From the NCBI GenBank assembly GCA_945898275.1, contig CAMDHZ010000023.1:1-42879 (forward strand): a stretch of DNA of 42,879 nt, given 5' to 3'. A program made the position numbers and the translations under genes. The notes below the pieces were generated by a model. The model had not been told where the DNA came from. It saw only the letters and a program-made list of their open reading frames with translations, and did not search any database. Numbering within the stretch: the first letter of the stretch is position 1; each line of letters begins with the position of its first letter. Below, one piece after another: positions 571 to 39,967 of the stretch. This stretch comes from Chitinophaga pinensis. GTDB taxonomy: Bacteria; Bacteroidota; Bacteroidia; UKL13-3.

Positions 571-1688
571 TTTCTTAAACGATACCCTAAGCTCCATTCC
601 ATAAAATCACTTTTTAGTTGGCCTTTTGCATTAATGGTACCTTTGAAGAAGCTTCCAATAAACCAATTTGGCCCTAAGTTATAACCCAATCCAAACCTTA
701 TGTACAGCGGTTCTTTGATATATGTCAAGGGGGCAATATAAGTATACACACCAAAGGGTAAGAAAAACTTTCCTAAACTAAATCTTTGAGAAATGCCAAT
801 TGCTACTAAATACTTCTCGTTCTCTTTTACTTGGTAAAGTTTTTTAGTTTTATCTGTTAAAGATTGCGTCGCATCATAATGGAAATCCATCCCTAATCCT
901 AATGAGTATAGTTTATTAAGTTGGTATTGAATGTTTTGGTTCAAACCAAAAACCCAAAACCTATCTAAGTATGAAAAATAATTATACTCTCTATGGGTAG
1001 CAAAGCCATACAACCAATACTTCCAAGCTTTCTTTTCCAAATTATAATCATGTTTTAAGATTTCTTGATTTGGTTTCCCTCGGTTCAAACCGAAACCTGC
1101 TTTTAGGTATAATAAATTTATACCACCATTTGGCATTTTTATGCTACCATTTGAAATGTGGTAAACGCCTGGTGATAATACAAAGTAATATTTTTCTTTT
1201 AAATTGATTTCCCAATCTAATCCTAAATCAAGGCCAAAGTTAATAGGTGAACTAATAGCTCTGTTGTCGAAGTTAGTTTCTTTATTGTATTGTTGGGTAT
1301 TGAAATTTATCCCATAAGAAACTTTGGCGCGCAATGCTTGATTTTTCGTTATTTTGAGTGGTATATGAATACTTGGTAAAATACCAAAAGCATACCCAAA
1401 AGTATCTATTTTATTTAAGGCTGCAACTCTAAAATTGAGCATTACTTTTTGTTCGCCGTATATGCTTTTATAGGATGGTTTTCCTATTCCATTTTTACCG
1501 AAACCAAATTCTATTCCTTGGATAGGCCCCTCTAAGGAAGCTTTGGTTTTATCAATTACATTTGTGGCAAAATGATGGCCATAAAGTGTTGAAATTTCAA
1601 TCTTGTTAATTTGCGAATAACCAAAGAGATTAAGACATAATAGCAATACAACAAGTGTTTTTCTGTTTGACCCAAGCATTGATTCCAT
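567..1688 (-). CDS. PagL-like acyloxyacyl hydrolase, outer-membrane beta-barrel
   Basis: Predicted outer-membrane protein of 373 residues with an N-terminal signal peptide (hydrophobic stretch about residues 11-23, cleavage near 'GYSQ') and alternating strands typical of a beta-barrel. Residues 177-191 read HISNGS...GGIN, matching the His-x-Ser-Asn and downstream Gly-x-Asn pattern of the PagL lipid A 3-O-deacylase family, where His and Ser are catalytic; here they are H177 and S179. The protein is much longer than PagL and has an unassigned C-terminal barrel-like extension of about 150 residues. The start at 1688 lies one base after the stop of the prenyltransferase gene; an alternative ATG at 1679 would give a cleaner signal peptide. 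It is the last gene of the dnaX operon. Activity on lipid A is inferred from the family. Two copies of the dispersed GGTTCAAACC motif lie inside. Confidence 0.7.
   Translation of the reverse strand: MESMLGSNRKTLVVLLLCLNLFGYSQINKIEISTLYGHHFATNVIDKTKASLEGPIQGIEFGFGKNGIGKPSYKSIYGEQKVMLNFRVAALNKIDTFGYAFGILPSIHIPLKITKNQALRAKVSYGINFNTQQYNKETNFDNRAISSPINFGLDLGLDWEINLKEKYYFVLSPGVYHISNGSIKMPNGGINLLYLKAGFGLNRGKPNQEILKHDYNLEKKAWKYWLYGFATHREYNYFSYLDRFWVFGLNQNIQYQLNKLYSLGLGMDFHYDATQSLTDKTKKLYQVKENEKYLVAIGISQRFSLGKFFLPFGVYTYIAPLTYIKEPLYIRFGLGYNLGPNWFIGSFFKGTINAKGQLKSDFMEWSLGYRLRN
938..947 (+). repeat. Dispersed motif GGTTCAAACC, copy 1
   Basis: Flanks TTT/AAA make an 18-base inverted repeat around a central CA. 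It lies in the PagL-like gene, read as GLN in the gene's frame. Confidence 0.85.
1082..1091 (+). repeat. Dispersed motif, copy 2
   Basis: Right flank GAA as in the consensus. It lies in the same gene, 144 bases from copy 1, read as GLN. Confidence 0.85.
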
Positions 1689-1689
1689 T

Positions 1690-2571
1690 TTAATATCTCC
1701 AAAAGACCATGCTGAGGATTCCTGTAATCATAGTAACTTTGGCAATGAGGCTTAGGCGACTAAAATCTTGCTTTACATCTGCCATGCGAATAAGCCAAAT
1801 ACTTGAAAACATAGGAATAATTACTGCCAACAACATATACATAACAAAAATGCCAAACACTTTATTACTACTGTAACTAAGAACACCAAAAAAAGTACAA
1901 TAGACTAAGGTTAGGCCTGCCAAAATTACTTGAAGCCAGGTGATTACATCTTTAGTTTTTCTAACACCAAGAACAATTGGTAAGGTTTTGCATTTGAATT
2001 TTGCATCACCACGCATGTCTTCGGTGTCTTTGATTATTTCGCGCACTAGGGTTGTTAAAAAGGCAAAGGCCGCATAAACCCAAATGCCATTAACCATTAC
2101 CCGATGGTCAAAAAAATAAATAATTAGCAAGGTAAAGCTACTAAGGGTGGCAACCATTAAGTTACCAATTAAGTAGGTTTTTTTTAGTAATTGTGAATAA
2201 ATCCAAAGAAATAAACCAGATAGGAAAACGCTTAAAGCAATGGTATTACTGAGTTGCAGGGCTAATAAGAAGGCAATTAGGTTCAACCCAAAATGTAAGA
2301 ACATTGCCCAACGCCTGCTAATAGTTTTTCCAACAATTACTTTTTCAGGTTTGTTAACCAAATCAAGCATGACATCCATGTAGTCATTGATAATGTAACC
2401 TGCGGCTGCAACCAAAAATGTACTTGTGAGTAAAATTACAAATTGAGGCGAAATGACATCTCTAATCGAGATGGAAGGAGATAAAAAGTAATATGCAAAT
2501 AATTGGGTAAGGGAAATTATAATAAGATTATTGAACCTAATAAGCCTTAAAAAATCCCTGATTAAAAGCAT
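1690..2571 (-). CDS. UbiA-family prenyltransferase
   Basis: Integral membrane enzyme of 293 residues with about eight or nine hydrophobic segments. Two aspartate-rich motifs of the UbiA superfamily are visible: N62-D63-x-x-D66-x-x-x-D70, and R177-E178 followed by D182, E184, D185 and D189. These bind the Mg-diphosphate of a polyprenyl donor. In Bacteroidota this subfamily is usually annotated as geranylgeranylglycerol-phosphate geranylgeranyltransferase-like; the acceptor cannot be read from sequence, and a quinone or heme role (MenA or CtaB type) is not excluded. It sits two bases downstream of the DUF502 gene and one base upstream of the PagL-like gene, so it is probably co-transcribed with both. 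Confidence 0.8.
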   Translation of the reverse strand: MLLIRDFLRLIRFNNLIIISLTQLFAYYFLSPSISIRDVISPQFVILLTSTFLVAAAGYIINDYMDVMLDLVNKPEKVIVGKTISRRWAMFLHFGLNLIAFLLALQLSNTIALSVFLSGLFLWIYSQLLKKTYLIGNLMVATLSSFTLLIIYFFDHRVMVNGIWVYAAFAFLTTLVREIIKDTEDMRGDAKFKCKTLPIVLGVRKTKDVITWLQVILAGLTLVYCTFFGVLSYSSNKVFGIFVMYMLLAVIIPMFSSIWLIRMADVKQDFSRLSLIAKVTMITGILSMVFWRY

Positions 2572-2573
2572 AA

Positions 2574-3167: not shown

Positions 3168-3169
3168 GG

Positions 3170-4897: not shown

Positions 4898-4932
4898 GCG
4901 GTGAAAATAGTAGCTTTTTCTTGAAACCGCAA
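4895..4932 (-). promoter_or_regulatory. Candidate promoter of dnaX operon
   Basis: On the minus strand, TTG (4932-4930), a 20-base spacer and TATTTTC (4909-4903) resemble the Bacteroidota TTTG / TAnnTTTG promoter. The -7 box ends only five bases before the ATG, which suggests a leaderless or nearly leaderless mRNA. Inferred from pattern only. Confidence 0.4.
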
Positions 4933-4941
4933 TTTAGAAAC

Positions 4942-6966
4942 TTAAGCTTCAGAATTGTAGAGTGGTAATTCTATATAAAAGGTTGAACCATAATTAGGTT
5001 GGCTTTCTACAAATATTTTTCCACCATGGGCTTCAATTATAGATTGAGAAATTGTTAACCCAATTCCAAATGATTTTTCTTTTTCTAAACCAACTCTTCC
5101 TATTTTTTGGTGTTTATCAAACAACTTATTTATTACATCTTTTGTCATCCCAATGCCTTGATCTGAAATACTTAATAAACATTTATCCTGTTTTTGAATA
5201 AGTTTTATATGGATTACTGATTTTCTTGGACTAAACTTAATTGCGTTCATTAGAATATTTATAATCACACGTTTGATGCGTTCTCCATCAATTGAAATTC
5301 TTATTTCCTCTTCCAATAAAGTAACTACCTGAATTTGTTTTGGTTCAAACCTAAATCTTAATAAGTTTATTGTATCATTAATAATCGGATTGATTAAAAT
5401 GTTTTCCTTAGATAAAGTTAGTATGCCTTTTTCAATAACAGATTGATCCAAAATATCCTCAATGATGTGCATGGCCATAAAGCAACTACTTGAGATTAAT
5501 TTTTGGTATTCCTCGCTTTCTGGACTTTTTTGTATGTATTCATCTAGTAAACTTTGTAAACTTATCAAATTCCCAATAGGGGTTCGAAGGTCATGTGCAA
5601 TTGTATTAATTAAGTAGGTTTTATTATCATTGGCTTGAAGTAATTGATGGTTTAGTGCCTCTAAAGAAAACTTTTGTTGCATGATTTGTTTGTTCATTTC
5701 TTGCAATTGGGCATTGTTATTCTTGATTTTTCTATAAAAATAAATTGCAATTATTTGGGTTATAATCAAGAATACCACTAATCCAGAAATCCCAATTGTG
5801 ATAAGGCTGTTATTTTTGTTTTGTTGAACCAAAAGTTCATTTTCGGCCTTTTCTTGGCCTAACTTATATATCAGCATTTGCCTAGATAAGTTATTTCTAC
5901 CTGTTACCTTATTAACAGAGTCTCTAAACTGAAGGTGTTTCATCTTAGTTTTATAAGCAGCTTCGTAAAGGTTTTGCCTAGCAAAATGTTTGGCTAATTG
6001 TGCCAGTCGATATTCATTCAAATGTTTAAAGCCTAGGCTATCAATTAGTTGTTTTGAACGCAAAAAGAGTGCATCTGCTTCTTTATAATTACCTTCCAAA
6101 CTTTTAAGTGCTCCAATAAATATGTAGGTATGGGCGGCATGGTTTAACTCATCGTTTTCTGGTTTTAGGCAAAAGGCAAGTCCTTTAAAGAGGTATTCAT
6201 AGGCAATTTTATATTGTTTTAGTTCGCCATAGATAGCGCCAATATTGGTGGAAATTACCCCTATGGGGCGTTCTTGTTCAAACTTAGCATTTTGACAAAA
6301 AGCCAAGGCAATTTTAAAATATGCCAAGGCTTTATAAGGATTATACATTTGTTGATGGCATAAGCCAATATTCAATAAGTTGTTTTGAACCCAATAAGCA
6401 TATTCTGGATTTTGATCTTTGATTTGGTTGTACAAAACAAAGCTCCCAAAAAAATATTGACGTGCAAGCTCATAACTGTATTCCTCATAATGCAGCAAAC
6501 CCAATTTGTTGTAAATAAATCCTAGTTTTTCTTTTTTGTCCAAATTGGTATAAATCTCTTGTGCTTTTAAAAGATATGGAATAGAGTTTTTAATGTCTAC
6601 GATAGTTTCATAATAGGTTGCTAAATCTGTATAAATATCAGCTAACAAAAGTTTATCGTTAAGTTTTTCGGCAACTTCAAGTGCCTTTTTTTTATACGTA
6701 AATTGTTGGTTAAGTTCGTCCCTTTTGCTAAATAAATCTCCTTTAATCCTAAAAAATCTGTACAAATCCAGATTGGTTTTATCAAAAGAAATCTTCTGTT
6801 CAATTTGGTCAATGAATAGGGCAGCCGAATCTAGTTTAGAATGGTCAAGGTAATATTGGGTTTTTATAAAAGCAGAATCAATAGGGTTTCCTTTGGTTGA
6901 AAAGGTCCAAATCCAAATAAATATTAAAAATAAAACCGTAGTTTTGTTGGATAGGCAAAAAATCAT
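4942..6966 (-). CDS. TPR-containing sensor histidine kinase
   Basis: Membrane-bound two-component sensor of about 674 residues. Order (numbered from the upstream GTG at 6972): N-terminal hydrophobic segment (10-25), a periplasmic array of TPR-like helices (about 35-350), a transmembrane helix (391-413), a coiled-coil linker (415-450), HisKA with phospho-acceptor H460 in 'AHDLRTP', then an HATPase domain with N box N576, G1 box DQGIGM (604-609) and FGIGL (635-639). All kinase motifs are intact. No response regulator lies next to it, so it is an orphan. The start is ambiguous: GTG at 6972 or ATG at 6966. I prefer the ATG because a TATTTTC promoter-like box (6979-6973) abuts the GTG. The signal sensed is unknown. 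Confidence 0.9.
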   Translation of the reverse strand: MIFCLSNKTTVLFLIFIWIWTFSTKGNPIDSAFIKTQYYLDHSKLDSAALFIDQIEQKISFDKTNLDLYRFFRIKGDLFSKRDELNQQFTYKKKALEVAEKLNDKLLLADIYTDLATYYETIVDIKNSIPYLLKAQEIYTNLDKKEKLGFIYNKLGLLHYEEYSYELARQYFFGSFVLYNQIKDQNPEYAYWVQNNLLNIGLCHQQMYNPYKALAYFKIALAFCQNAKFEQERPIGVISTNIGAIYGELKQYKIAYEYLFKGLAFCLKPENDELNHAAHTYIFIGALKSLEGNYKEADALFLRSKQLIDSLGFKHLNEYRLAQLAKHFARQNLYEAAYKTKMKHLQFRDSVNKVTGRNNLSRQMLIYKLGQEKAENELLVQQNKNNSLITIGISGLVVFLIITQIIAIYFYRKIKNNNAQLQEMNKQIMQQKFSLEALNHQLLQANDNKTYLINTIAHDLRTPIGNLISLQSLLDEYIQKSPESEEYQKLISSSCFMAMHIIEDILDQSVIEKGILTLSKENILINPIINDTINLLRFRFEPKQIQVVTLLEEEIRISIDGERIKRVIINILMNAIKFSPRKSVIHIKLIQKQDKCLLSISDQGIGMTKDVINKLFDKHQKIGRVGLEKEKSFGIGLTISQSIIEAHGGKIFVESQPNYGSTFYIELPLYNSEA
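5342..5351 (+). repeat. Dispersed motif, copy 3
   Basis: It lies in the histidine kinase gene, read in another phase as FEP. Confidence 0.85.
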
Positions 6967-7034
6967 TAGCACGAAAATAAATTTAAATTGCCTAAATAGC
7001 TATTTTATTGGAGAATTAAAATCATGTTTTTTAC

Positions 7035-7062: not shown

Positions 7063-7073
7063 TGAGATAAATA

Positions 7074-7104: not shown

Positions 7105-7133
7105 CGGTCCTTTTAAAATTAAAACATCGATAA

Positions 7134-7544: not shown

Positions 7545-7546
7545 TC

Positions 7547-10042: not shown

Positions 10043-10738
10043 TTGCAAATTAAGTTTGAAAATTGGGGACCTATCGACTACCAACAAGCTTGGGATAAGC
10101 AAGAAGCGGTCTTCCAAGAAAAAGTGAATCTTAAATTTCAAAATCGACAACATCCTGAAGTTGAAACTCCCTCCATTTCGCATCACTTGTTTTTCTGCGA
10201 ACACCCGCATGTTTACACCTTAGGCAAAAGTGGTGATAAAGCAAATTTATTGCTAAATGAAATTGAACTAAAGGAAATAGGCGCAAAGTTTTATCCCATA
10301 AATCGAGGAGGAGATATTACTTATCATGGACCTGGACAATTGGTTGGCTACCCCATTTTTGATTTAGAACAGGTGTTTACAGATATCCATAAATACTTGA
10401 GATTTTTGGAGGAAGCTGTTATTCAAATGTTAAATAGATATGGCATTATTGCTGGAAGATATGAAGGGTATACGGGCGTTTGGATTGAACCCGACTTGCC
10501 ATCTGCACGCAAAATATGTGCTATGGGCGTGCGTTGCAGTAGGTGGATTACCATGCATGGATTTGCCTTAAACATTCATCCTGATTTGAACTACTTTAAA
10601 CATATCATTCCTTGCGGAATTGATGATAAGGATGTTACATCCATGGAAAGGGAATTAGGATACAAACCCAATTTTGAAGAAGTATCTTTAGTTTTAAAGG
10701 AAGAAATCGCAAGACAATTCGAAGCTATTTATTTGTAA
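10043..10738 (+). CDS. lipB: Lipoyl(octanoyl) transferase
   Basis: Moves octanoate from acyl carrier protein to lipoyl domains, the first step of lipoate synthesis; 231 residues. 'RGGDITYHGPGQLVGYPI' (88-105), K157 in 'ARKICAMGV' and the catalytic C191 in 'IIPCGI' identify it. The start is TTG at 10043: it gives the expected N-terminus and no ATG occurs before residue 129. It follows the TerC gene by four bases. Its end overlaps the convergent DUF1501 gene by 14 bases. No lipA is in the window. An insert of about ten residues (35-45) precedes the first conserved strand. Confidence 0.96.
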   Translation: MQIKFENWGPIDYQQAWDKQEAVFQEKVNLKFQNRQHPEVETPSISHHLFFCEHPHVYTLGKSGDKANLLLNEIELKEIGAKFYPINRGGDITYHGPGQLVGYPIFDLEQVFTDIHKYLRFLEEAVIQMLNRYGIIAGRYEGYTGVWIEPDLPSARKICAMGVRCSRWITMHGFALNIHPDLNYFKHIIPCGIDDKDVTSMERELGYKPNFEEVSLVLKEEIARQFEAIYL

Positions 10739-12316: not shown

Positions 12317-14032
12317 TTAACAAAGTTGATATTCTGCCTGTCCAAATAAATATTTAAGTAATGCTTGCAAGCGAATTTTAATTGCATCCTTGTTTGCATT
12401 ATTAGAAGGATTGGTTTTGTACAAATTCCATGCATCAGTCCAAATGTAGTTTTCGGTTTGACCCGAAAGTAAGAAGGATGTTTTTATAAAATTTTTAGTA
12501 TTTGCACTTAGGTCATTTGGGTATAACAAAGTAATTATATCAGTTAGTAATTGGTCTGGATTTGAAGGGTTACTAAATTGCTCAGCAAATGCGATTGTAT
12601 CAATTACAGTTTTAAATCCAAATCTTGAATATCCAAGGTATAATAAATAGTCTGCTATGGAATTTCTTTTAGGAAGGGTATCAGAATTGATCCAAATTTC
12701 ATAATACTGAGGATTTTCGTAGTAAGCCGGCCATCCTGCCACGTTAGGTGGGTCGCCAAGGTCTTGGTTTGCAGTTTGCGCCGAGAATTGAACCACCTGC
12801 CAATGGCCGTATTGCTTTTGGGCGTCAGAATTATCTGGAAAAACTAGATTTGTTTGCCTGCATAAACCAACCAAGTGGTCAAGTGGAGATTTTATCATGC
12901 AGCCCCTATTAAGAGCATCATAAAAGTGTTCACTTTTTAATAAGGTCTCAATAACAGGTAAGATGTTATAATTATTGCTCCTAAATAAATTTGCCAGAGG
13001 TACAATTACATTTTTTTCTACACTATCATCAATTACATAATAAACAAAAAAACGGTAGATTTTTCTAACAATGTATTTGGCTGTTTCCTCGTGGGCCAAC
13101 AACATGTTTAATAAATCATCCAACTCTAATAAACCTGCATTGGCTCCTGTTCTGCCTGTAATTACAGTGTTATTATAAAATGCCGAAAAAGTTTTATTTC
13201 CAGTATCATGTTTATTGCTGTCGAAAAATGAACTGATTCCAAGTCGATTATTTCTCCAGCCAGTTAGTACTTTTGCAGCTTGTTTTACATCCTCTTCTGT
13301 ATAATGTTGCGGAAGGTCTTTTCCAATGGTAAACAATTCTTGTAGTTCTCTTCCATAGTTTTCATCAGGCGCAGTTTTGGTGTTTTGCTCGCCATTTAGA
13401 TAGCTTAACATAGCTGGGTCAAGGGTTACTTGTTTGAGTAACTCCTTAAAATTTCCAAGGCAATTTGCCCTCAGCATGGCATGGTGCTTATATGAATACC
13501 TAGAATCCTGAACAGTAATAGTTTCAGTAGCAAAATGATTATGCCAAAACAAAGTCATTTTTTCTCTAATACTTCTGTCTTGGTTCAATAATAAACCTGT
13601 CCACCATGCCTTAAGAGAAAAAATGCGGGCTCCTTCCAAGTTTGGATTTACAGCAGCATTTACCCAAGTGCTTCCATAAGGTACTTCGGCGTCATTTTGA
13701 TTAGGATTGTTGCCATAATTATTCAAAGGAGGAAAAGGTGGATTTGCAGGTAAGCTTAATAAATTTGCAACACATTCATTCATAGATTTTCCTTTGAAGA
13801 AATCTAAATCCGTTTTTTTGACTCCAAAAAGTGTTCTTCGCAAAAGATGCAAAATTTGGGTTTCTCCCCAACTTCCAACATAAGGATTAATGCCTGTGCT
13901 CGTTTTTTGAAGATGCCTTGGCAGGTCTTTATTCGAAGGATCCTTGTATGGGTAAGGCTTAGGAGGAAGTGATTCCGACAATAATTCCGACCCTGCGCTT
14001 TTTAAAAAGGCTTTTCTGGATAATTGTTTCAT
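12317..14032 (-). CDS. DUF1800 family protein
   Basis: A protein of 571 residues from the ATG at 14032. DUF1800 motifs appear in order: 'LLRRTLFGVKKTDLDF', 'REKMTLFWHNHFATE', 'NYGRELQELFTIG', 'EEDVKQAAKVLTGWR', 'FDSNKHDTGNKTF', 'HEETAKYIVRKIYRFFV' and 'DPPNVAGWPA'. The function of the family is unknown; it is nearly always encoded just before a DUF1501 gene, as here. Unlike its partner it has no T9SS sorting domain and no strong signal peptide, though 'MKQLSRKAFLKSAG' resembles the leader of the partner. A longer frame to 14158 exists, but it would overlap the divergent ATG of the aldehyde dehydrogenase gene and leave no promoter space, so I reject it. Confidence 0.88.
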   Translation of the reverse strand: MKQLSRKAFLKSAGSELLSESLPPKPYPYKDPSNKDLPRHLQKTSTGINPYVGSWGETQILHLLRRTLFGVKKTDLDFFKGKSMNECVANLLSLPANPPFPPLNNYGNNPNQNDAEVPYGSTWVNAAVNPNLEGARIFSLKAWWTGLLLNQDRSIREKMTLFWHNHFATETITVQDSRYSYKHHAMLRANCLGNFKELLKQVTLDPAMLSYLNGEQNTKTAPDENYGRELQELFTIGKDLPQHYTEEDVKQAAKVLTGWRNNRLGISSFFDSNKHDTGNKTFSAFYNNTVITGRTGANAGLLELDDLLNMLLAHEETAKYIVRKIYRFFVYYVIDDSVEKNVIVPLANLFRSNNYNILPVIETLLKSEHFYDALNRGCMIKSPLDHLVGLCRQTNLVFPDNSDAQKQYGHWQVVQFSAQTANQDLGDPPNVAGWPAYYENPQYYEIWINSDTLPKRNSIADYLLYLGYSRFGFKTVIDTIAFAEQFSNPSNPDQLLTDIITLLYPNDLSANTKNFIKTSFLLSGQTENYIWTDAWNLYKTNPSNNANKDAIKIRLQALLKYLFGQAEYQLC

Positions 14033-14142
14033 ACCTTTTGTTTTCTTTAAGATAAAGGTAAGGATTAAAGGTTTAATTTTCTCATAAAAAAACATTTTAA
14101 GTTCCTGTCTAGGCAGTTTTGTGTTTTGCACTTGTTTAAGTA

Positions 14143-14152
14143 GGTTTGAACC
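14143..14152 (-). repeat. Dispersed motif, copy 4
   Basis: It ends at the base before the aldehyde dehydrogenase ATG, in the divergent gap upstream of the DUF1800 gene. Non-coding if the DUF1800 start at 14032 is right. Confidence 0.8.
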
Positions 14153-15598: not shown

Positions 15599-17245
15599 TT
15601 GAAGTATAATAAATTTTTATTCCTTTTCATTCTGCTGGTATTCGTATTAAACCTCCGCTTGGATGTAATGGAAATTGATGCTGCGCAGTATGCAAGTATT
15701 TCTCTTGAAATGTTGCAAACCAATAGTTTTTTGGAGGTTTATGACCAAGGGCATGACTACCTAGATAAACCGCCATTGTTGTTTTGGTTGAGTGCATTTT
15801 CAATGAAGGTTTTTGGGGTTTCTAATTGGGCCTACAAGCTACCTGCCTTGTTAGTTTTATTGCTTGGTGTTTTTTCATTATATAAACTTGCTAGGAATTG
15901 GTACAATGAAGAAACTTCTCAATTAGCAGCCTTACTATTGTGCTTTACTAATGCTTGGTTTCTCATGACAAATGATGTGAGAACAGATGGCATTTTGAGC
16001 GGTTTTATTGTGTTTTCAGTCTGGCAAGTCGTTGAATTTGCGAATTCGAAAAGGTGGATTTATTTGTTAGGTGCAGCTATTGGAATTGCAGCAGCTATGA
16101 TGTCAAAAGGTCCAATTGGATTGGTTATTATTGGAATGGCTGTAGGTTTTCATTGGCTTGTTTTGCAAGATTGGAAAGCCATCTTCAAATGGCAATGGTT
16201 ATTAATGCTGCTAATAGTAGGTGTTTTGCTAGGTCCCATGTTATACGGACTTTACCATCAATTTGACTTGCATCCAGAAAAGGAAGTGTATGATTTAAAA
16301 GGCCCTTCTGGTATTTTGTTTTTCTTTTATACGCAAAGCTTTGGAAGAATTACAGGTGATATTTATTGGGACAATCATGCGCCTTGGCATTACTTTTTTG
16401 ATACCATGGCTTGGGACATGCAACCTTGGTTTCACTTGTTTTTATTAGCTTTAATCATTCGTCTTGTTTCAATAGTTAAAAATAGGTTTCGGTTTGAACC
16501 AAACTCAGAATATGTTTCTTTATTTGGTTTTTTATTGCCTCTAATTGCTTTGTCAGCGTCTCGGTTCAAACTGCCACATTATGTTTTTCCTATTTTCCCG
16601 TTTGCTGCGATTATTACAGCAGATTTTATATGTAACAAACTACCTCAATTTAAAGCCACTTTTAAAGGTATGAAAGCATTTCAGTTTGCCTTGAATATGC
16701 TTTTGCTTGCAGCGGTGGCTGTTGCTTTTTCCTTCTTTTTTACCCCAAATACTATTTCAATATTGATCTTAGTTGCAGGTTTTTTAGGTTTTGTTTTTCT
16801 TTATGCAAAATCAAAATCATTAAACTTAAAATGGTACCATCCCCAACTATTTGCATTTGGTGTTTTTGGTTTGATGATGTCTGTTTATTTTTATCCTAAC
16901 CTGCTTAAATACCAATTTAGTTCACAGATGGGAAAAGACCTTGCTTCAGCAAAATATGAAGGAAAGGCAATTTATAGATTTGGGATTTATGATAGAAGTT
17001 TTGGGTTTTATACTCTAAATAAAGTTCCATTACTAACCAAACCAGAGATCAAAAATTTAGCTTCTGGAGCAATTTTGGCTGCTACTGCCGAATCCTTGCA
17101 AGAAATTGACACTTTGGTTCAAACCGAATTTGATACCTTAGCAACTTACAACGCCTACCCTGTAACCCAATTAAACCCAGAGTTTTTACTTAAAAAGTTT
17201 AGAGAACAAAAAGTTAAGAAAACATATTTAATCATTAAAAAATAA
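15599..17245 (+). CDS. ArnT-like membrane glycosyltransferase (GT39/GT83 type)
   Basis: A protein of 548 residues with an N-terminal membrane helix and about ten more. The first periplasmic loop has 'EIDAAQYASISLEM' and 'HDYLDKPPLLFWL' (about 25-65), the pattern of polyprenyl-phosphate-sugar glycosyltransferases of the ArnT/PMT superfamily, with the acidic residue that binds the metal or acts as base. A TTG start at 15599 is chosen since it keeps the first membrane helix; the next Met would delete it. A C-terminal periplasmic domain (about 440-548) is present. Acceptor and donor are unknown (lipid A, glycan or protein). It is three bases downstream of the aldehyde dehydrogenase gene. Two exact motif copies lie inside. 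Confidence 0.85.
   Translation: MKYNKFLFLFILLVFVLNLRLDVMEIDAAQYASISLEMLQTNSFLEVYDQGHDYLDKPPLLFWLSAFSMKVFGVSNWAYKLPALLVLLLGVFSLYKLARNWYNEETSQLAALLLCFTNAWFLMTNDVRTDGILSGFIVFSVWQVVEFANSKRWIYLLGAAIGIAAAMMSKGPIGLVIIGMAVGFHWLVLQDWKAIFKWQWLLMLLIVGVLLGPMLYGLYHQFDLHPEKEVYDLKGPSGILFFFYTQSFGRITGDIYWDNHAPWHYFFDTMAWDMQPWFHLFLLALIIRLVSIVKNRFRFEPNSEYVSLFGFLLPLIALSASRFKLPHYVFPIFPFAAIITADFICNKLPQFKATFKGMKAFQFALNMLLLAAVAVAFSFFFTPNTISILILVAGFLGFVFLYAKSKSLNLKWYHPQLFAFGVFGLMMSVYFYPNLLKYQFSSQMGKDLASAKYEGKAIYRFGIYDRSFGFYTLNKVPLLTKPEIKNLASGAILAATAESLQEIDTLVQTEFDTLATYNAYPVTQLNPEFLLKKFREQKVKKTYLIIKK
16491..16500 (-). repeat. Dispersed motif, copy 5
   Basis: Full 16-mer consensus (TTTGGTTCAAACCGAA on the minus strand). 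It lies in the ArnT-like gene, read as FEP. Confidence 0.85.
17116..17125 (+). repeat. Dispersed motif, copy 6
   Basis: Full 16-mer consensus. Same gene as copy 5 but in the other orientation and phase, read as VQT. Confidence 0.85.
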
Positions 17246-24052: not shown

Positions 24053-24109
24053 TATACTAAGAAACCTATTGCAAAAGTTATTTATTTGAATAGCCATAAA
24101 AAAAGTGTA

Positions 24110-25177: not shown

Positions 25178-25187
25178 GGTTTGAACC
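25178..25187 (-). repeat. Dispersed motif, copy 9 (intergenic)
   Basis: It lies three bases after the mltG stop codon, outside any gene, with the GAA flank. Confidence 0.85.
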
Positions 25188-28465: not shown

Positions 28466-29710
28466 ATGGAAAGACCCATCCTATTAATTATTGGTTTTGT
28501 TTGGCCTGAACCAAATTCAAGTGCAGCTGGCGTAAGAATGATGCAATTGATAGAAGGATTTTCTAATAATGGATATAAAGTGGTTTTTGCTTCTGCGGCT
28601 CAACACAGTGAGTTTGAATTCCCATTAGCTAAGTTAGAGATTGAAACTTGCTCAATAAAGCTGAATGATGATTCTTTTGATGAATTTCTTAAAGGTTTAA
28701 ACCCAACTATAGTTTTGTTTGATCGATTTATGATTGAAGAACAATTTGGTTGGAGGGTTTCTGAAATTTTACCCAATGCCATTAAAATTCTAGATACAGA
28801 AGACCTGCATTTTTTAAGAAAGGCTAGGCATAATGCAGTGAAAAAGGGAGTAGAAATGAGCTTAGCTGAAATGCAAACTGACATTGCCAAGAGAGAAATT
28901 GCAAGTATTTTAAGGTGCGATTTAAGCCTAATTATTTCTACTTATGAGTTTACATTGCTCACAGAAACATTTAACATAAGTTCAAAATTACTTTGGTATT
29001 TTCCAATTTGGTTTGAACCAAAGACTGAGCCATTCCCAACTTTTGAGGAAAGAAAGGATTTTGTATTTATTGGTAACTTTTACCATGAACCAAATAGACA
29101 TGCAGTAATAGTTTTAAAAGAAAAAATTTGGCCACTTATTCATAAGAAACTACCTGAGGTCAACTTAAATATTTATGGAGCCTATTGCGATGAAAAACTA
29201 AATAGTTTGCATAGTGAGAAAGATGGATTTATGGTAAAGGGTAGGGCAGAGCAGGTAGAACTAGTTATGAAAAGCGCAAAAGTTTGTTTAGCACCAATGT
29301 TATTTGGCGCTGGTTTAAAGGGGAAGTTATTAGAAGCAATGCAAGCCGGAACACCTTCCGTTACCACTTCTATTGGTGCTGAAGGAATTGCAAGTAACTC
29401 GGATTGGCCTGGCTTTGTTTCCGATGATTTTAATGAATTTGCTTATAAAGCATGTTTGCTCTATTCAGATATTACGCTTTGGACAGAATCGGTTCAAACC
29501 GGAAAAAAAATACTAGAAAATAATTTCAACAGGGTACGGTTTGAACCAAACTTTTTTGAAGGTTTGAAGGTGTTAAACTTAAATTTAAAAGTTCATAGAC
29601 AAGGAAATTTCGTGGGTCAGATTTTGCAGCATCATACCATGGTAAGTACAAAATATTTAAGCAAATACATCATGGCTAAAAACAAAAAATCGGAAGACCA
29701 AATTCTTTGA
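28466..29710 (+). CDS. Glycosyltransferase, GT-B fold (family 4-like)
   Basis: A cytoplasmic protein of 414 residues. The N-terminal half begins 'PILLIIGFVWPEPNSSAAGVRM', the first Rossmann strand with a sugar-acceptor loop; the C-terminal half has 'FVFIGNFYHEPNRHAV', 'PEVNLNIYGAY' and 'LAPMLFGAGLKGKLLEAMQAGTPSVTT', the nucleotide-sugar binding motif of GT4/GT1 enzymes, with the usual E in 'KLLEAM'. Donor and acceptor are unknown and no other sugar gene is beside it. The last seven or so codons form the left arm of the terminator hairpin, and the stop codon lies in its loop. Three exact copies of the dispersed motif and a GGTTTAAACC variant lie inside, the densest cluster in the window. Confidence 0.88.
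   Translation: MERPILLIIGFVWPEPNSSAAGVRMMQLIEGFSNNGYKVVFASAAQHSEFEFPLAKLEIETCSIKLNDDSFDEFLKGLNPTIVLFDRFMIEEQFGWRVSEILPNAIKILDTEDLHFLRKARHNAVKKGVEMSLAEMQTDIAKREIASILRCDLSLIISTYEFTLLTETFNISSKLLWYFPIWFEPKTEPFPTFEERKDFVFIGNFYHEPNRHAVIVLKEKIWPLIHKKLPEVNLNIYGAYCDEKLNSLHSEKDGFMVKGRAEQVELVMKSAKVCLAPMLFGAGLKGKLLEAMQAGTPSVTTSIGAEGIASNSDWPGFVSDDFNEFAYKACLLYSDITLWTESVQTGKKILENNFNRVRFEPNFFEGLKVLNLNLKVHRQGNFVGQILQHHTMVSTKYLSKYIMAKNKKSEDQIL
29010..29019 (-). repeat. Dispersed motif, copy 10
   Basis: It lies in the glycosyltransferase gene, read as FEP; flanks TTT/AAA give a 16-base inverted repeat. Confidence 0.85.
29491..29500 (+). repeat. Dispersed motif, copy 11
   Basis: Same gene, read as VQT; 37 bases from copy 12 in opposite orientation. 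Confidence 0.85.
29538..29547 (-). repeat. Dispersed motif, copy 12
   Basis: Same gene, read as FEP. It can pair with copy 11 over ten bases. Confidence 0.85.
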
Positions 29711-31744: not shown

Positions 31745-31786
31745 GCTGCAGATTTTTGGGTGAACCAAATTTCTGTGGCTTTTTTA
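31745..31786 (+). terminator. Terminator between phaE and phaC
   Basis: GCTGCAGA (31745-31752) pairs with TCTGTGGC (31772-31779) using two wobble pairs; an inner stem TTTGG/CCAAA continues it. A T-run (31780-31785) follows. Full readthrough to phaC is thus doubtful. Confidence 0.7.
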
Positions 31787-31825
31787 TTTAAACAAATTAT
31801 ATTGAGCCTACAATTAAATGCGCGT

Positions 31826-32884: not shown

Positions 32885-34537
32885 TTAACCACGTTTGGTT
32901 TTGAACCAAGCGTCTAATTCTAAGGCGGATTTAGCATTGAAACACATTTCTTTGGTAAGTCCGCCTTTTTGTGCAGCAACAATTCCCCAATGCATGTCTA
33001 AAAATCCTGCTGTCTCATGTGCATCCGGATTAATACTTATCATTACTCCTTTCTCAAGCGCGTAATTAATATGTCTCCAATCCATGTCTAACCTATATGG
33101 GTTTGCGTTAAGTTCAATCACCACATGATTCGCTGCACAAGCATCAATCACCTTTTTATGGTCAATTGGATAACCTTCCCGCATCAACAACAACCTGCCA
33201 GTAGGGTGACCTAAAATAGTAGTGTATGGGTTTTCAATGGCCTTAAGCAATCGTTCCATTGCCTTTTCTTCGGTCATCTTGAGTACACTGTGAATGCTGG
33301 CAACAACATAATCAAAAGATTTGAGCACCTCATTAGCATAATCTAAGCTACCATCATATAAAATATCGCACTCAATTCCAGTGAAAATTTTGAAGTCTGT
33401 CCATTGTTGGTTCAAACCGAAAATTTCTTTTTGTTGTGCATATACACGTTCTTCTGATAATCCATTGGCGTAAAACGCACTCTTGCTATGGTCGGCCATG
33501 CCTAAGTATTCAAAGCCTTGTGACCGGCAAAAATTAGCCATTTCTAGGACAGTATTTAAACCATCACTCCAAGTTGAGTGGTTATGCAAAGGCCCTTTTA
33601 AATCTGAATATTCAATTAACTTAGGGAGCGCATTTTTTTCTGCCAATTCAATTTCGCCACGGTTGTCTCTTAACACAACAGGAATAAATGGTAAATCTGC
33701 TGCTTCATAAATTTCTTCATCGTCCCTAACTTCTGGTAATGGAAATCCAATGCGTTGTAAAATAGATTCTGCATGTTGCGCATCTGAACATAATCTAAAT
33801 AATTCCCATGCAAATGAAGTTTCATCGCAATAGTGAAAGGCAATTGTATAACCTTGGAAACTAATTTTTTCTTTTGAACTAGTTATGCCTGGCAATTCCA
33901 GAATTGCTTGTGCTGCCAAGGATTGTTCTTCCGTTTCAATTAGAATGTCTACACTGTCCAATACCTCAAAACCTCTACCAATTTGGCCACATAAACTTGT
34001 TGAGGTTACGGATGGTATTTGGTTCAATAATTCAATTAAATTTAGGGCAAAAGGGTAGGCTTTGGCGTAGTGAAATTTGTTTGCATTGGCAAACATAAAT
34101 TCTATTTGCTTGATGATGGCATCCTGTGTTTTCAGTCCAAATCCTTTGGCTTGAACCAACCTATTTTCTTTGCAAGCATATAAAAGTTCTCCAATGGATT
34201 CAATGTTTAATTCTTTCCAAATGGTAGCAACTTTTTTGGGCCCAATTCCTTTGATGCGCATAATTTCCAATACTCCTTTTGGGGTTTGGGCAAGTAACTC
34301 TTCTAATTCTGGAAAACGCTGGGTTTGGTTAATTTCAAAAATTACTTTGGCTATGCTTTTGCCAATTCCTTCGATGGCTTCTAGTTCTACCAAAGTTTTT
34401 GTTTCTAAGGGCGTAGGCAATTTATCTATTCTAAAAGAAGCATTGCTAAAGGATTTTATTTTAAAGGCATTTCCACCATGCAATTCGCTAAGGTCGGCAT
34501 ATGCTTTTAGAATATCTGAAAGGTCTGAGTTGTTCAT
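32885..34537 (-). CDS. polX: PolX-like protein: degenerate polymerase X domain plus intact PHP domain
   Basis: A protein of 550 residues. HhH motifs ('IEGIGKSIAK' about 55-64 and 'IKGIGPKKVATIW' about 95-107) lead into a Pol X palm that is decayed: the usual GSxRR reads GQIGR (184-188), the GDID metal motif reads DSVD (194-197), losing one Asp, and the third catalytic Asp position appears to be H235. The PHP domain (about 315-550) keeps its metal residues: H318, H320, D325, H350, E389, H416, H444, D505, H507. So it is probably a PHP-type 3'-5' exonuclease or phosphoesterase with a DNA-binding front half and no polymerase activity. Last gene of a leftward trio with the EamA and MBL genes. Confidence 0.88.
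   Translation of the reverse strand: MNNSDLSDILKAYADLSELHGGNAFKIKSFSNASFRIDKLPTPLETKTLVELEAIEGIGKSIAKVIFEINQTQRFPELEELLAQTPKGVLEIMRIKGIGPKKVATIWKELNIESIGELLYACKENRLVQAKGFGLKTQDAIIKQIEFMFANANKFHYAKAYPFALNLIELLNQIPSVTSTSLCGQIGRGFEVLDSVDILIETEEQSLAAQAILELPGITSSKEKISFQGYTIAFHYCDETSFAWELFRLCSDAQHAESILQRIGFPLPEVRDDEEIYEAADLPFIPVVLRDNRGEIELAEKNALPKLIEYSDLKGPLHNHSTWSDGLNTVLEMANFCRSQGFEYLGMADHSKSAFYANGLSEERVYAQQKEIFGLNQQWTDFKIFTGIECDILYDGSLDYANEVLKSFDYVVASIHSVLKMTEEKAMERLLKAIENPYTTILGHPTGRLLLMREGYPIDHKKVIDACAANHVVIELNANPYRLDMDWRHINYALEKGVMISINPDAHETAGFLDMHWGIVAAQKGGLTKEMCFNAKSALELDAWFKTKRG
33409..33418 (+). repeat. Dispersed motif, copy 13
   Basis: It lies in the PHP part of the PolX-like gene, read as GLN; right flank GAA. 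Confidence 0.85.
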
Positions 34538-34564
34538 ACCCTTGCAAGGTATTGAACCAAATCT

Positions 34565-35479
34565 TTATCGCCAAACAAGAATTAAAACCCCTGCCAAACT
34601 AATGCCCACAGCAAGGTAAGAAATGGGATTTATCTTTTCCTTGAACCAAATCACAGCTGCAATTAAAACGGTTATGGGTAGCATGGAAAAAATGGTTTGA
34701 GCAATGCCTGCTTCTAGATGGGTGGCCGCATACAATGAAAAGCTGATACCAATCATCGGTCCAAATAAAGTACCTAATAAGACTTGCTTATTGATGGATT
34801 TATTGAAACTAATATCTTTAAACTCCTGCCATAAATTTACTTTAAACGCGCCTATAAGATATACTGTTATAGAGGCAATTAACATTCTCACCCAAGTGGC
34901 ATAAATAGGATGGAAGTTTGGCGCAGAAACTTCAAATCCCTTCTTTGCAAATACTAGTCCAACACCTTGCCCAACTGCACCAAGAATACCAAATAAAACT
35001 CCGACCATAAAATTGCCATGCCCTTCTTGGTTAACATTTGCCTTTTCCTTTCTAGATAAGACAAGGATTAGAATTCCTGCCACAGAAATTAACATGCCCA
35101 GAATTCCTTGTAAAGTAATAGGTTCATTGAGCAGCAAACTAGCCCCAATAAATGCTGCACCAGGCGCAAAACAAGAGAATAAACTCGTTCTTCTGTTGCC
35201 TAAAATTTTAAAAGCAGAAAATGCAAAATAATCTCCTAAAGTTAGTCCAATAAAACCTGAAATTCCAAACCATAAATACTGCTCTGCACTAATATTTGTG
35301 AAAAGTTCGATTGGGTTCAAACCGAATAAAAAACAGCAAATAATGCTTAAGGCTAGGGCCGCATATAAAAGTCTTACCCTATTAACTGATGCTGGGGATG
35401 CTTTTCTAGCGGCAAATGCAAATACATAGGTTGCAATTGTCCAGCAGATTAAAGTTGCAAAAGCAGCTAAGTATCCCAT
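34565..35479 (-). CDS. EamA/DMT-family transporter
   Basis: A protein of 304 residues with ten hydrophobic helices arranged as two EamA repeats (about 1-140 and 155-304). Each repeat ends in the usual pattern: 'NEPITLQGILGMLISVAGILIL' and 'KEKINPISYLAVGISLAGVLIL'. These are drug/metabolite exporters; the substrate cannot be read from sequence. It starts three bases after the stop of the MBL nuclease gene and ends 27 bases before the PolX-like gene, so all three are likely co-transcribed. One motif copy lies at 35314. Confidence 0.93.
   Translation of the reverse strand: MGYLAAFATLICWTIATYVFAFAARKASPASVNRVRLLYAALALSIICCFLFGLNPIELFTNISAEQYLWFGISGFIGLTLGDYFAFSAFKILGNRRTSLFSCFAPGAAFIGASLLLNEPITLQGILGMLISVAGILILVLSRKEKANVNQEGHGNFMVGVLFGILGAVGQGVGLVFAKKGFEVSAPNFHPIYATWVRMLIASITVYLIGAFKVNLWQEFKDISFNKSINKQVLLGTLFGPMIGISFSLYAATHLEAGIAQTIFSMLPITVLIAAVIWFKEKINPISYLAVGISLAGVLILVWR
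35314..35323 (+). repeat. Dispersed motif, copy 14
   Basis: It lies in the EamA gene, read as GLN in a loop between helices; right flank GAA. Confidence 0.85.
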
Positions 35480-35482
35480 GGT

Positions 35483-36901: not shown

Positions 36902-37009
36902 TCTTATTTCGATTCGATATTATTTATCAACCTACAAATAAAGTTGCTTTCTTTAATTTTGTTTGATTTAATTATATTGTGCCCTATTAACTTGATATCT
37001 TTTAAGCAT

Positions 37010-38088: not shown

Positions 38089-38526
38089 TTAAAGGTCTAG
38101 AATAGCATAAGTTGCAGAACTTTTGGCAATTAAAGTTTCAATGTCATTGTTAACAGAATAGATTTCTGCCTCTGCAAAAGCCATTTTCTGGCCAATTTTA
38201 ATTACACTTCCAATGGCCTTAGCATGGCTTCCAACACCAGGATTGAGATAAGAAACTTTCATTTCAATGGTTACAAGCGTCTGACCTTCTTTCACCAAGG
38301 TAAAAGCCGCAAATCCTGCGGCTAAATCTGCCAAGGTAGCGGTAACACCTCCATGCAAAAAACCTATTTGTTGTTTGTGTTCTGGCTTTACTTCTAAAAT
38401 TCCTTCTACTTTGGCAGCCTCAATAAGGGTTGGTTTGAACCCAAGATGATTCATGAAATGATTTTGAGCCATTTTATCTTTAATCATTTGCTCAAAATTG
38501 GGATTTTGTGGGATAAATGCTTGCAC
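38089..38526 (-). CDS. PaaI-type hotdog thioesterase
   Basis: A protein of 145 residues with the PaaI/YbgC-like hotdog pattern: 'GFLHGGVTATLADLAAGFAA' (about 55-74) with the HGG motif and the acidic residue on the central helix, then 'TIEMKVSYLNPG' (about 86-97). It would hydrolyse an acyl- or aryl-CoA; the substrate is unknown. The GTG at 38526 keeps the usual length; an ATG at 38487 is 13 codons inside. It is divergent from DUF3822 across a shared palindromic promoter region, and its Gly-Phe-Lys-Pro segment is encoded by a motif copy (38432). Confidence 0.9.
   Translation of the reverse strand: MQAFIPQNPNFEQMIKDKMAQNHFMNHLGFKPTLIEAAKVEGILEVKPEHKQQIGFLHGGVTATLADLAAGFAAFTLVKEGQTLVTIEMKVSYLNPGVGSHAKAIGSVIKIGQKMAFAEAEIYSVNNDIETLIAKSSATYAILDL
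38432..38441 (-). repeat. Dispersed motif, copy 15
   Basis: It lies in the thioesterase gene, read as FKP, a fifth phase. Confidence 0.85.
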
Positions 38527-38551
38527 TTTTCTTTATTTGTATTGGTTTTAC

Positions 38552-38566
38552 TACTTTGCGAAAGTA
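38552..38566. promoter_or_regulatory. Palindromic -7 region shared by thioesterase and DUF3822 genes
   Basis: TACTTTGCGAAAGTA is a 15-base inverted repeat (arms TACTTT/AAAGTA). Read rightward it gives TACTTTGC, leftward TACTTTCGC, both like the -7 box of Bacteroidota. The starts lie 13 bases to the right and 25 to the left. It may instead be an operator. Confidence 0.5.
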
Positions 38567-38579
38567 AGAAGGAAATATT

Positions 38580-39434
38580 GTGCAATCCATAAACATCAAA
38601 ACATATTCTGATAATCAATATCATTCTGCTGATAACCAAAGGTTGACGAATATTCTCTTTTTCTCACCTAACCATATTAGCACTGTTACGTTTGATCCAA
38701 TTGCCAAGCAAATCCTTGAAATGAAGGTTTTTTCGGGCATTCATCATAATGTTTTGCAGCTCAGCTATGATGAACTTAAATCTATTCTTCCTTTGATGGA
38801 GGAACTTAAGGTTAAGTATAAAGAAAGAAAGGTTGTTATTTCTGATAAAAATTGCACTTTGGTACCCGATGCCTTGCTTAACGTGGTTGAAACAGAAAGT
38901 TATTACCAATTGAACCACCATTTGTTGCCAAACTCTCAGGTGCTTTATTGCAAAATGCATGTTCAGCAAACTGCGGTTTTGTTTAATGTAAGAAATGAGT
39001 TGGTTAAGTTAATTCGTTTCAACATGCCAATGGTTGATGTTTACCATGGCTCTTTGTTGTTTATTAAAGCAGTAGAACATCAGCAATTCTCTGAGGCCGC
39101 AAATAAGTTGCACTTGCATATTCATCCTGGATATTTTGAATTGTTAAACATTGATAAGCAAATTCGTTTTTATAATACATTTGATTTTGAAAGTGAAACA
39201 GAAATAGTTTATTTCTTGTTGGCTTCAGCAGAACAACTTCAAATTTCTCATGCTTGCGATGTTGTGATTTATGGCAATTCACCAACTTTGCCTTCACTGC
39301 AAAATTTATTAACTAAATATGTTAGGAGCGTACAGTTTGCTATAAAACCTAAGAACTTCACTTATCCTATCAGTTTTAAAGAGTTTGCAGAATATCAATT
39401 TTTCACAGAATCTGCTGCAATATTGTGCGAATAA
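38580..39434 (+). CDS. DUF3822 family protein
   Basis: A protein of 284 residues, cytoplasmic, with no signal or membrane helix. It has the actin-like/hexokinase-like character of DUF3822: 'FFSPNHISTVTFD' near the N-terminus, a central 'YCKMHVQQTAVLFNVRNELVKLI' order and a C-terminal 'YFLLASAEQLQ' region. The function is unknown; in Bacteroidota it is regularly encoded just before rsmD, as here, with a ten-base overlap. The start is GTG at 38580, the only start that keeps full length. Confidence 0.85.
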   Translation: MQSINIKTYSDNQYHSADNQRLTNILFFSPNHISTVTFDPIAKQILEMKVFSGIHHNVLQLSYDELKSILPLMEELKVKYKERKVVISDKNCTLVPDALLNVVETESYYQLNHHLLPNSQVLYCKMHVQQTAVLFNVRNELVKLIRFNMPMVDVYHGSLLFIKAVEHQQFSEAANKLHLHIHPGYFELLNIDKQIRFYNTFDFESETEIVYFLLASAEQLQISHACDVVIYGNSPTLPSLQNLLTKYVRSVQFAIKPKNFTYPISFKEFAEYQFFTESAAILCE

Positions 39435-39967
39435 TTGGAGGCGAAAAAAGCGGCTTATTAATTCAGCCTCCCAAAGGATTACCCGTTAGACCAACTACAG
39501 ATAGAGCAAAAGAGAGTTTGTTTAACATGCTCGATTCTAGATTAACTTTATCTGGAATTCATGTTTTAGATTTATTTGCAGGAACTGGCAATCTCAGTTT
39601 CGAATTTGCTTCAAGAGGCGCAGCAGAAGTAATGAGTATCGACCAAGACTTTGGCTGTATTAATTTTATCAAACAAGCATCTAAAGGTTTCGGTTTGAAC
39701 CAAATAATGGCTAGGAAGCAGGATGCATTTGCCTTTTTGAACCAAAATAAAAAGCAATATGATATTATTTTTGCAGACCCTCCTTATGCCTTATCCCAAA
39801 TAGCCATGTTGGCTCAAACCATTTGCAGCGGTAGCCATTTAAAAGAAGGTGGCTTGGCCATTGTTGAACATGCTACCTTGCAAGATTTAAGTTTTGTAAC
39901 AGGTTTTGAGAAAAGTAAAACCTATGGTCAAAGCACGTTTTCTTTTTTTGTATACAATTCAGGTTAA
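39425..39967 (+). CDS. rsmD: 16S rRNA (guanine(966)-N(2))-methyltransferase
   Basis: Methylates G966 of 16S rRNA with S-adenosylmethionine; 180 residues, the usual length. 'MRIIGGEKSG' start, 'RPTTDRAKESLFNML' (about 22-36), the SAM-binding 'DLFAGTGNLSFE' (about 48-59) and the catalytic 'FADPPY' (about 115-120) are all present. The start is GTG at 39425, inside the end of DUF3822. A motif copy encodes 'FGLNQ' (39692). The 50-base gap to the convergent ligA has no good terminator hairpin that I can see. Confidence 0.96.
   Translation: MRIIGGEKSGLLIQPPKGLPVRPTTDRAKESLFNMLDSRLTLSGIHVLDLFAGTGNLSFEFASRGAAEVMSIDQDFGCINFIKQASKGFGLNQIMARKQDAFAFLNQNKKQYDIIFADPPYALSQIAMLAQTICSGSHLKEGGLAIVEHATLQDLSFVTGFEKSKTYGQSTFSFFVYNSG
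39692..39701 (-). repeat. Dispersed motif, copy 16
   Basis: Full 16-mer consensus. It lies in rsmD, read as GLN. Confidence 0.85.

Follow-up and report, generated by a model that had tools for sequence, protein, structure and literature searches.

A 14-base DNA word enriched throughout one genus of Bacteroidota: a candidate tag for the recognition of self DNA

A stretch of 42,879 bases from a bacterium of the phylum Bacteroidota (contig CAMDHZ010000023.1, assembly GCA_945898275.1), hereafter the window, carries numerous copies of the 10-mer GGTTCAAACC. This 10-mer is the best form of a 14-base word, TnGGnTC-RR-nCCnA, which is dispersed over both strands of the genome, is abundant in all 19 genomes of the genus, differs between lineages in the spelling of its centre and is held almost fixed at the level of DNA. 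With a probability of about 0.4 it may be regarded as a genus-specific self-DNA recognition tag, which would be kept by biased DNA replacement. The well-known cases of comparable words are only two uptake-word systems and the cyanobacterial highly iterated palindrome HIP1, all of them outside the Bacteroidota. Among the open-access papers listed in searches for the word itself, for uptake sequences in Bacteroidota, for HIP1, for over-represented palindromes and for the evolution of uptake sequences, no description of it was found, and no title listed for the word itself dealt with a genomic repeat of bacteria.

Results

Abundance and form of the word

The 3.52 Mb genome of the window (G000) contains 785 copies of GGTTCAAACC, 394 forward and 391 reverse, against 29 copies (9 and 20) of the reversed control, that is GGTTCAAACC read backwards. 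An earlier note made on the window alone had reported a strong over-representation with both orientations about equally used, and both traits persist at the scale of the whole genome. The strict 10-mer of that note turned out to be too narrow, as other bases are tolerated at positions 3 and 8. All three alternatives at position 3 are far over expectation, and the same is true for C and G at position 8. The degenerate pattern GGNTCAANCC was registered at 203 sites in 443 kb of G000, where 9.0 were expected, and at 272 sites across 601 kb. There is one site of this pattern per 2.1 kb and one exact copy per 4.5 kb. The 203 sites gave the consensus TnGGnTCAAnCCnA; T two bases ahead of GG is present in 93% of sites in G000.

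The two halves of the word are not equivalent. With complete sites masked, the left half TTGGTTCAA was still enriched 4.6-fold (89 vs 19.4) and TNGGNTCAA 3.2-fold, while right-half words reached 0.3- to 0.9-fold of an expectation computed before masking. Left halves lacking the right CC were kept in a sister species in 49 of 51 cases for TTGGTTCAA (against 66%) and in 127 of 140 for TNGGNTCAA (against 72%); right halves lacking GG were less conserved there (80 of 96 against 75%), all these counts pooling both directions and counting shared sites twice. Since the left half alone stays enriched and conserved, while the right half is not enriched and is less conserved, the word is directional in this species, in agreement with the direction ascribed to it earlier despite its near-palindromic core.

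Constraint at the level of DNA

Conservation was estimated for one species pair, G000 and its relative G008, with 238,817 aligned bases at 93.65% identity. Of the aligned sites, 110 of 115 in G000 are also sites in G008, and the reverse comparison gives 110 of 116. Random windows agree at the corresponding eight positions in 16,933 of 26,415 cases (64.1%), and 290 of 501 shuffled words with equal composition were kept (57.9%); compared with random windows the conservation of sites gives a binomial p of 6e-16 if sites are assumed to be independent. The flanks (about 60 bases) are 92.5% identical, being slightly more divergent than the aligned DNA overall (93.65%). Among the 11 unshared sites seven differ in the right CC only, and one turned into the CAG form.

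Tests within genes relied on longest open reading frames (ORFs) called by a script rather than by a trained gene finder. Of the fourfold-degenerate third positions that lie inside the ten bases of the word itself, 160 of 165 (97.0%) are identical, as compared to 21,626 of 27,591 (78.4%) elsewhere. Under a codon-shuffled null in the genes of the 443 kb sample 9.0 exact copies and 24.3 sites of GGNTCAANCC were expected, while 89 and 180 were seen, so that the excess, which the earlier note would have given up had it come near a codon-aware expectation, remains. Together with the use of all five stop-free phases and the near fixation of fourfold bases, this null supports a phase-free DNA element rather than a protein motif. 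As DNA, the word is almost invariant.

For other pairs within the genus only 2-10 kb could be aligned per pair and few sites compared. The word was retained, in one form or another, at three of three CGA sites but not at the single CAA site (0/1) for G010-G012, at three of three sites for G006-G004, at three of four for G006-G014 and at one of two for G010-G016. The aligned CGA sites of G012-G016 were also kept, the two listed being probably one LigA site in two loci.

Limits of its occurrence

To cover all spellings of the centre, the consensus was scanned as TNGGNTCRRNCCNA in 64 genomes of the order (19 of the genus and 45 others); palindromic CGA sites may match this pattern on both strands and be counted twice. 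Matches number from 118 to 1672 in each of the 19 genus genomes (controls 5-35) and from 4 to 40 in the 45 others (controls 2-26), most of the latter being near their own controls. The exact GGTTCAAACC is likewise enriched in all 18 other genus genomes (46-1318 copies, each over its control, with 839 in G008). Elsewhere it does not exceed 22 copies in 18 family genomes from other genera or 20 copies in 23 class genomes, and 25 named Bacteroidota genomes have 1-16. The weakest members of the genus, G015, G017 and G018, are still over their controls, G018 having the fewest matches. Counting in relatives, which had been suggested as a check of the word, showed that it is abundant throughout the genus.

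Several minor deviations were registered outside the genus. The largest exception for TNGGNTCRRNCCNA, G111, has 33 forward and 7 reverse matches on a single contig (control 8), and its copies look as if they were carried by a directional repeat. Genus g7 of the same family has 27-36 matches of TNGGNTCRRNCCNA against controls of 11-26, and in genus g14, also of this family, GGNTCGANCC is 2-3 times its control in five of five genomes; a faint relic or an independent weak form of the word is possible in both. A slight excess was also seen in class-level genomes G057 (15 vs 3), G051 (20 vs 8) and G043 (17 vs 5). The sister-genus genomes G019 and G024 revealed no such word of their own in 20 kb of each. 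No supported neighbour of the genus emerged from a DnaX tree that included 80 named loci.

Lineage-dependent spelling of the centre

Members of the genus that are poor in the exact word use other spellings. The palindromic CGA pattern GGNTCGANCC occurs at 520, 473 and 327 sites in G012, G010 and G016 (controls 16, 13 and 9), and GGNTCAGNCC is present in 662, 569 and 447 copies in G001, G007 and G002 (controls 16, 22 and 18). Like-for-like counts of the CAA, CGA and CAG centres, made in sampled stretches of the genomes, gave 272, 11 and 11 for G000, 139, 6 and 6 for G008, and 18, 2 and 1 for G005, all of which prefer CAA. So does G013 (86, 8 and 12), although it is placed outside the clade of G000. 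CGA is preferred in G012 (1, 14 and 1), G010 (7, 10 and 1) and G016 (5, 13 and 2), while the centres are mixed in G004 (13, 6 and 11), G014 (10, 5 and 10), G006 (7, 2 and 5), G003 (12, 18 and 6) and also in G009 and G011. A pure CAG dialect was rejected, as the like-for-like count shows a mixture of CAA, CAG and CGA in G004, G014 and G006. A LigA tree with 17 of the 19 genomes groups together G000/G008/G005, G010/G012/G016, G004/G014/G006 and G009/G011. These clades correspond to the sets of centres, clearly so for CAA and CGA, and the preferred centre appears broadly to track descent, with G013 standing apart. Unlike the CAA form of G000, the CGA form reads as a perfect palindrome.

Placement on the chromosome

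The 203 sites are distributed as 180 in genes, 22 between genes and one on an edge, in DNA that is 92.6% coding. Their spacing is near random (mean 2.1 kb, coefficient of variation 1.07), and their position along genes is flat. Terminator-like inverted pairs were considered and rejected, as 9 of the 21 pairs less than 150 bases apart share their orientation and 12 are opposed, without any fixed spacing; the small number of intergenic sites also speaks against a role in termination. No strand bias was found in contigs C1, C2 and C7 of G000 or in the window (50/98, 43/82, 35/69 and 12/23), in contig C32 of G008 (53/102) or in contig C34 of G013 (39/83); for G003 and G004 only 6 and 11 sites could be used. 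Polarity of the kind shown by Chi or by FtsK-orienting polar sequences (KOPS) was thus not seen in these contigs, in which origin and terminus are unmapped, and its lack speaks against strand-polar words. Within genes 108 sites lie on the gene strand and 72 on the opposite one, as compared to 481 and 1032 over 60 codon shuffles. Nothing is drawn from this comparison, because this null preserves peptides and codon pools gene by gene and is dominated by the FEP phase.

In DNA alignable to the compared stretches of G008 the density is 0.48 sites per kb (115 sites in 238.8 kb), and in the 19.9 kb that are not alignable it is 0.20 per kb, the latter value resting on a small sample of 4 sites. The largest motif-free stretch, 14.5 kb in C1 at 105.8-120.3 kb, begins where the alignment with G008 ends. 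It encodes a lipase, an AbiEii-like AAA ATPase, a trypsin-like protease and two tandem GIY-YIG genes, and looks accessory.

Copies in the window

The window has a GC content of 35.2% and contains 16 copies of the exact 10-mer, 9 on the + strand and 7 on the − strand, all at the positions first reported for them. The number expected by chance had been put at 0.05; a third-order Markov model gives 0.23, which leaves the strong excess in force at about 70-fold. Ranked by excess, GGTTCAAACC is the second 10-mer of the window, the first being its own shifted form CGGTTTGAAC, and the top 12-mer is GGTTCAAACCGA (8 copies vs 0.01 expected). Half of the exact copies (8/16) indeed have the GAA right flank, four share 16 identical bases in the form TTTGGTTCAAACCGAA, and the readings GLN, FEP, GSN, VQT and FKP were all recovered. 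Where 14 copies had been counted as coding, the ORF list puts 15 of 16 inside ORFs and one between genes; the total is 14 or 15, because the copy at 14143 falls at the very N-terminal end of an ORF with an unsure start. Allowing for degeneracy, there are 23 sites of GGNTCAANCC, listed below, of which 22 are kept in G008, the copy at 33409 being the sole exception.

938..947, + strand: GGTTCAAACC, GLN phase, ORF 567-1688(-)
1082..1091, + strand: GGTTCAAACC, GAA right flank, GLN phase
2280..2289, + strand: degenerate form GGTTCAACCC
5342..5351, + strand: GGTTCAAACC, FEP phase, ORF 4942-6972(-)
10482..10491, - strand: degenerate form GGTTCAATCC
12455..12464, - strand: degenerate form GGGTCAAACC
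14143..14152, - strand: GGTTCAAACC, GSN phase, N-terminus of ORF 12317-14158(-), start uncertain
16491..16500, - strand: GGTTCAAACC, full 16-base form TTTGGTTCAAACCGAA, FEP phase
17116..17125, + strand: GGTTCAAACC, full 16-base form, VQT phase
19017..19026, + strand: degenerate form GGTTCAATCC
21553..21562, - strand: degenerate form GGTTCAACCC
23051..23060, + strand: GGTTCAAACC, GSN phase
23569..23578, + strand: GGTTCAAACC, full 16-base form, VQT phase
25178..25187, - strand: GGTTCAAACC, intergenic, 3 bases past ORF 24086-25174
29010..29019, - strand: GGTTCAAACC, FEP phase
29491..29500, + strand: GGTTCAAACC, VQT phase, inverted pair with 29538
29538..29547, - strand: GGTTCAAACC, FEP phase, inverted pair with 29491
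33409..33418, + strand: GGTTCAAACC, lost in G008, which has GGTTCAAAAC in its place
34148..34157, - strand: degenerate form GGTTCAAGCC
35314..35323, + strand: GGTTCAAACC, GLN phase
38432..38441, - strand: GGTTCAAACC, FKP phase
39692..39701, - strand: GGTTCAAACC, full 16-base form, GLN phase
39811..39820, + strand: degenerate form GGCTCAAACC

An origin of the word from an RNA family or tRNA was rejected, as the window gives no Rfam matches and no tRNAs. The likeness of GGTTCRA to the T-arm of tRNA could presumably account for background copies only. Proteins encoded in the window are those of a member of the Bacteroidota and include a type IX secretion sorting domain. Adjacent genes at 30411-31718 and 31760-32884 code for a PhaE-like (TIGR01834, below the curated cut-off) and a PhaC-like protein, a putative class III polyhydroxyalkanoate synthase of a Bacteroidota genome.

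Other repeated words and viral pieces

After masking of the main word, GGGGGTAC was over-represented in the 443 kb sample of G000 (10 vs 1.5), as was the palindrome GGGTACCC (14 vs 3.1, counted over both strands). Stretches of G014 contain the 10-mers CTATGGTCTA (8 vs 0.13) and GACCATAGAC (6 vs 0.05), those of G005 contain ATGGTCCATG (6 vs 0.14) and those of G015 GACCATGGTC (2 vs 0.02). The samples of these three genomes are small, and their 10-mers are possibly a second, unrelated word, dispersed or borne by repeats. Stretches of G018 hold six copies of GGTGTGCCAC (vs 0.07) and four of TAGAGCGTGA (vs 0.02).

The 16-base form was also found in 21 viral pieces of IMG/VR (L313-L333), whose GC content (33-62%) is mostly unlike that of the genus. 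Twelve of them have no further GGNTCAANCC, and nine hold 2-5 in all. The 13 extra copies exceed chance, as base composition predicts about 3.8 and the reversed control does not occur. L332 (13.9 kb, 46% GC) has five copies of GGNTCAANCC. Viral or mobile contigs may carry the word.

Discussion

Dense words of a comparable kind are the DNA uptake sequences (DUS) of Neisseriaceae and the uptake signal sequences (USS) of Pasteurellaceae. Dialects of DUS follow phylogeny (PMC3630211), and DUS are reported to be conserved above background while their flanks are slightly more divergent (PMC2397512). The word described here is similarly dense on both strands, belongs to one taxon, has lineage spellings, is conserved beyond its flanks, occupies slightly permissive places and is poorer in lineage-specific DNA. 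Unlike DUS, which are read by the minor pilin ComP, it is palindromic or near-palindromic and belongs to another phylum and to a genus in which the type IV pilus ATPase was not detected; it is also 89% genic, whereas most neisserial DUS are intergenic (PMC2397512). The predicted receptor of USS, ComN, is a type IV minor pilin, too (PMC12616744). Our word has no sequence similarity to USS, and the pilus ATPase is again undetected here. Like USS, it has hundreds of phase-free and mostly genic copies and is asymmetric in this species; USS is not known to be palindromic. With HIP1 (GCGATCGC) it shares the nature of a dense iterated palindrome, perfect in its CGA form only, replaced by alternative words in some relatives (PMC4390886), and differs from it in its 14 bases, tolerant symmetric positions, an asymmetric variant and the lack of a uniform N6/N4 methylase in the genus. 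The analogy with DUS and HIP1 drawn in the earlier note holds for genomic behaviour and not for the known machinery.

An exchange tag is favoured here because the clade limit, the lineage spellings, the permissive flanks and the thinner occupation of lineage-specific DNA resemble what has been published for DUS. In such a system a sequence-specific DNA-binding protein of the genus would read the word in double-stranded form, with its main contacts in the left half, TnGGnTC, and lesser ones in the mirror image of that half. Word-bearing DNA would be favoured in exchange, both in uptake and in recombination, and alleles with a site would replace alleles without it. If word-bearing DNA is preferred, sites should spread to arbitrary permissive places and be purged of mutations, with no need of a benefit from each site. 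For a tight redundant word at many hundreds of places such a drive would be more economical than selection on every copy. Biased repair is the drive that has been proposed for HIP1 (PMC4390886). Drift in the specificity of the reader would lead to drift of the centre. The tag would act like DUS of Neisseria or USS of Haemophilus via a different receptor, proposed because the pilus ATPase of these systems was not detected: PF00437 (PilB/PilT/GspE ATPase) passed the curated cut-off in none of 62 genomes of the family and in 13 of 14 controls, 40 of the 62 showing weak partial matches below the cut-off in a search confined to this ATPase. Slightly more tentatively, one may assume a kind of system that has not been described, namely a palindromic, dialect-forming tag with a non-pilin reader that would sort own from foreign DNA, in Bacteroidota in which no type IV pilus motor was detected, with a divergence of lineages visible in two central bases.

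Several observations weigh against a recognition tag. The genus yielded no gene of a reader. Of 39 family genomes sampled 38 have ComEC, among them all five genus members of the sample; as sister genera without the word have it equally, it explains nothing by itself. One-mismatch variants of the left core are not enriched (17 seen vs 23.0 expected), while in genomes with USS and DUS variants with one mismatch are common. The perfectly palindromic CGA form suits a dimeric DNA-binding protein, and DUS and USS words are not known to be palindromes. Several members of the genus are mixed in their centres and do not form clean dialects. Sites are only partly kept in the pairs G004-G014 (2/3), G009-G011 (2/3) and G009-G003 (0/1). 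Finally, a motif-free gap of 12.4 kb (C2, 127.1-139.4 kb) holds core genes, and motif-free gaps are, because of that, not only islands.

The word might instead bind a protein that organizes the nucleoid or serves segregation or nucleoid occlusion, similar to Noc, SlmA or a nucleoid-associated protein, which we consider unlikely, though worth serious attention. A dimer would then occupy hundreds of copies of TTTGGTTC/GAACCAAA, a contiguous palindrome of 14-16 bases, folding the chromosome or keeping division away from it. Sites of parS, Noc and SlmA fall into the same size class as the CGA form, which is a contiguous perfect palindrome scattered over the chromosome as they are; a dimer would agree with the palindromy and with the tolerance at symmetric positions 3 and 8, and strand polarity is not required. 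The numbers differ, however, as about 1600 sites can be extrapolated here against tens for these proteins. At such a number of redundant sites selection for each of them should be weak, and yet they are nearly fixed; the enrichment and conservation of the left half alone in this species is also odd for the site of an obligate dimer. No additional ParB-family protein was found in 17 genomes of the genus, which speaks against a Noc-like ParB paralogue as the reader: ParB_N is single in 14 of them and absent from two, its second match in G004 is weak, and sister genera have 0-2, this search being limited to ParB among nucleoid families. A parS-like pattern was not found in the 30 ParB loci examined.

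Less probable still is a ratchet of mutation and repair, or a methylation-linked iterated palindrome, by which the word would accumulate as HIP1 may do, without serving exchange. HIP1 is likewise a dense palindrome for which a ratchet with orphan methyltransferases was proposed by Elhai in 2015 (PMC4390886), and the species-specific abundance of our word, from 118 to 1672, resembles the variation of HIP1 (PMC4390886). Against such a ratchet, the N6/N4 DNA methyltransferase family PF01555 is unmatched in 7 of 17 genomes of the genus and below the cut-off in four more, in a search that covered PF01555 and not PF00145, D12 or types I and III. The genomes free of PF01555 include G008 with its 839 exact copies and G012 with 520 CGA sites. 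The mild deficit of one-off variants of the left core also falls short of strong purging.

A recombination hot-spot word for a helicase-nuclease of RecBCD/AddAB type, similar to Chi, is improbable. The density of both GGNTCAANCC and the exact word is within the range of Chi densities, the left core is strict, and sites are denser in conserved DNA. Chi of E. coli is, however, biased to the leading strand, and this bias is missing in the contigs examined; a perfect palindrome cannot be directional, and the length of the word and its variation within the genus are unlike those of known Chi words. An artefact of proteins or codon usage, such as a repeated peptide motif or a codon pair bias, can practically be dismissed: about 89% of sites are genic (180/203) and VQT is the commonest phase (78/180), but the codon-shuffled null, the five open phases used on both strands, the intergenic copies, the nearly fixed fourfold bases and the sister genera, which lack the word at a comparable level, all rule it out.

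Selectivity for DNA has been reported elsewhere in the phylum. Transformation of Riemerella columbina and R. anatipestifer is reported to favour DNA of the own species (PMC7965970), and among the genes that a screen in the latter showed to be essential for transformation are some of unknown function (PMC8459023). The word is not the element discussed for Riemerella, because the k-mer table of that paper has only A/T-rich words (PMC7965970).

If the word is indeed a recognition tag, it would be an independent case resembling uptake words inside the Bacteroidota, where the pilus motor is undetected and spellings differ within one genus. Two questions would become directly testable: by what means DNA could be selected in Gram-negative bacteria that lack type IV pili, and whether it is exchange, chromosome folding or biased repair that maintains dense genomic words. 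The 14-base word itself offers a handle for purification of the reader and may provide a sequence key for the genetics of little-studied Bacteroidota.

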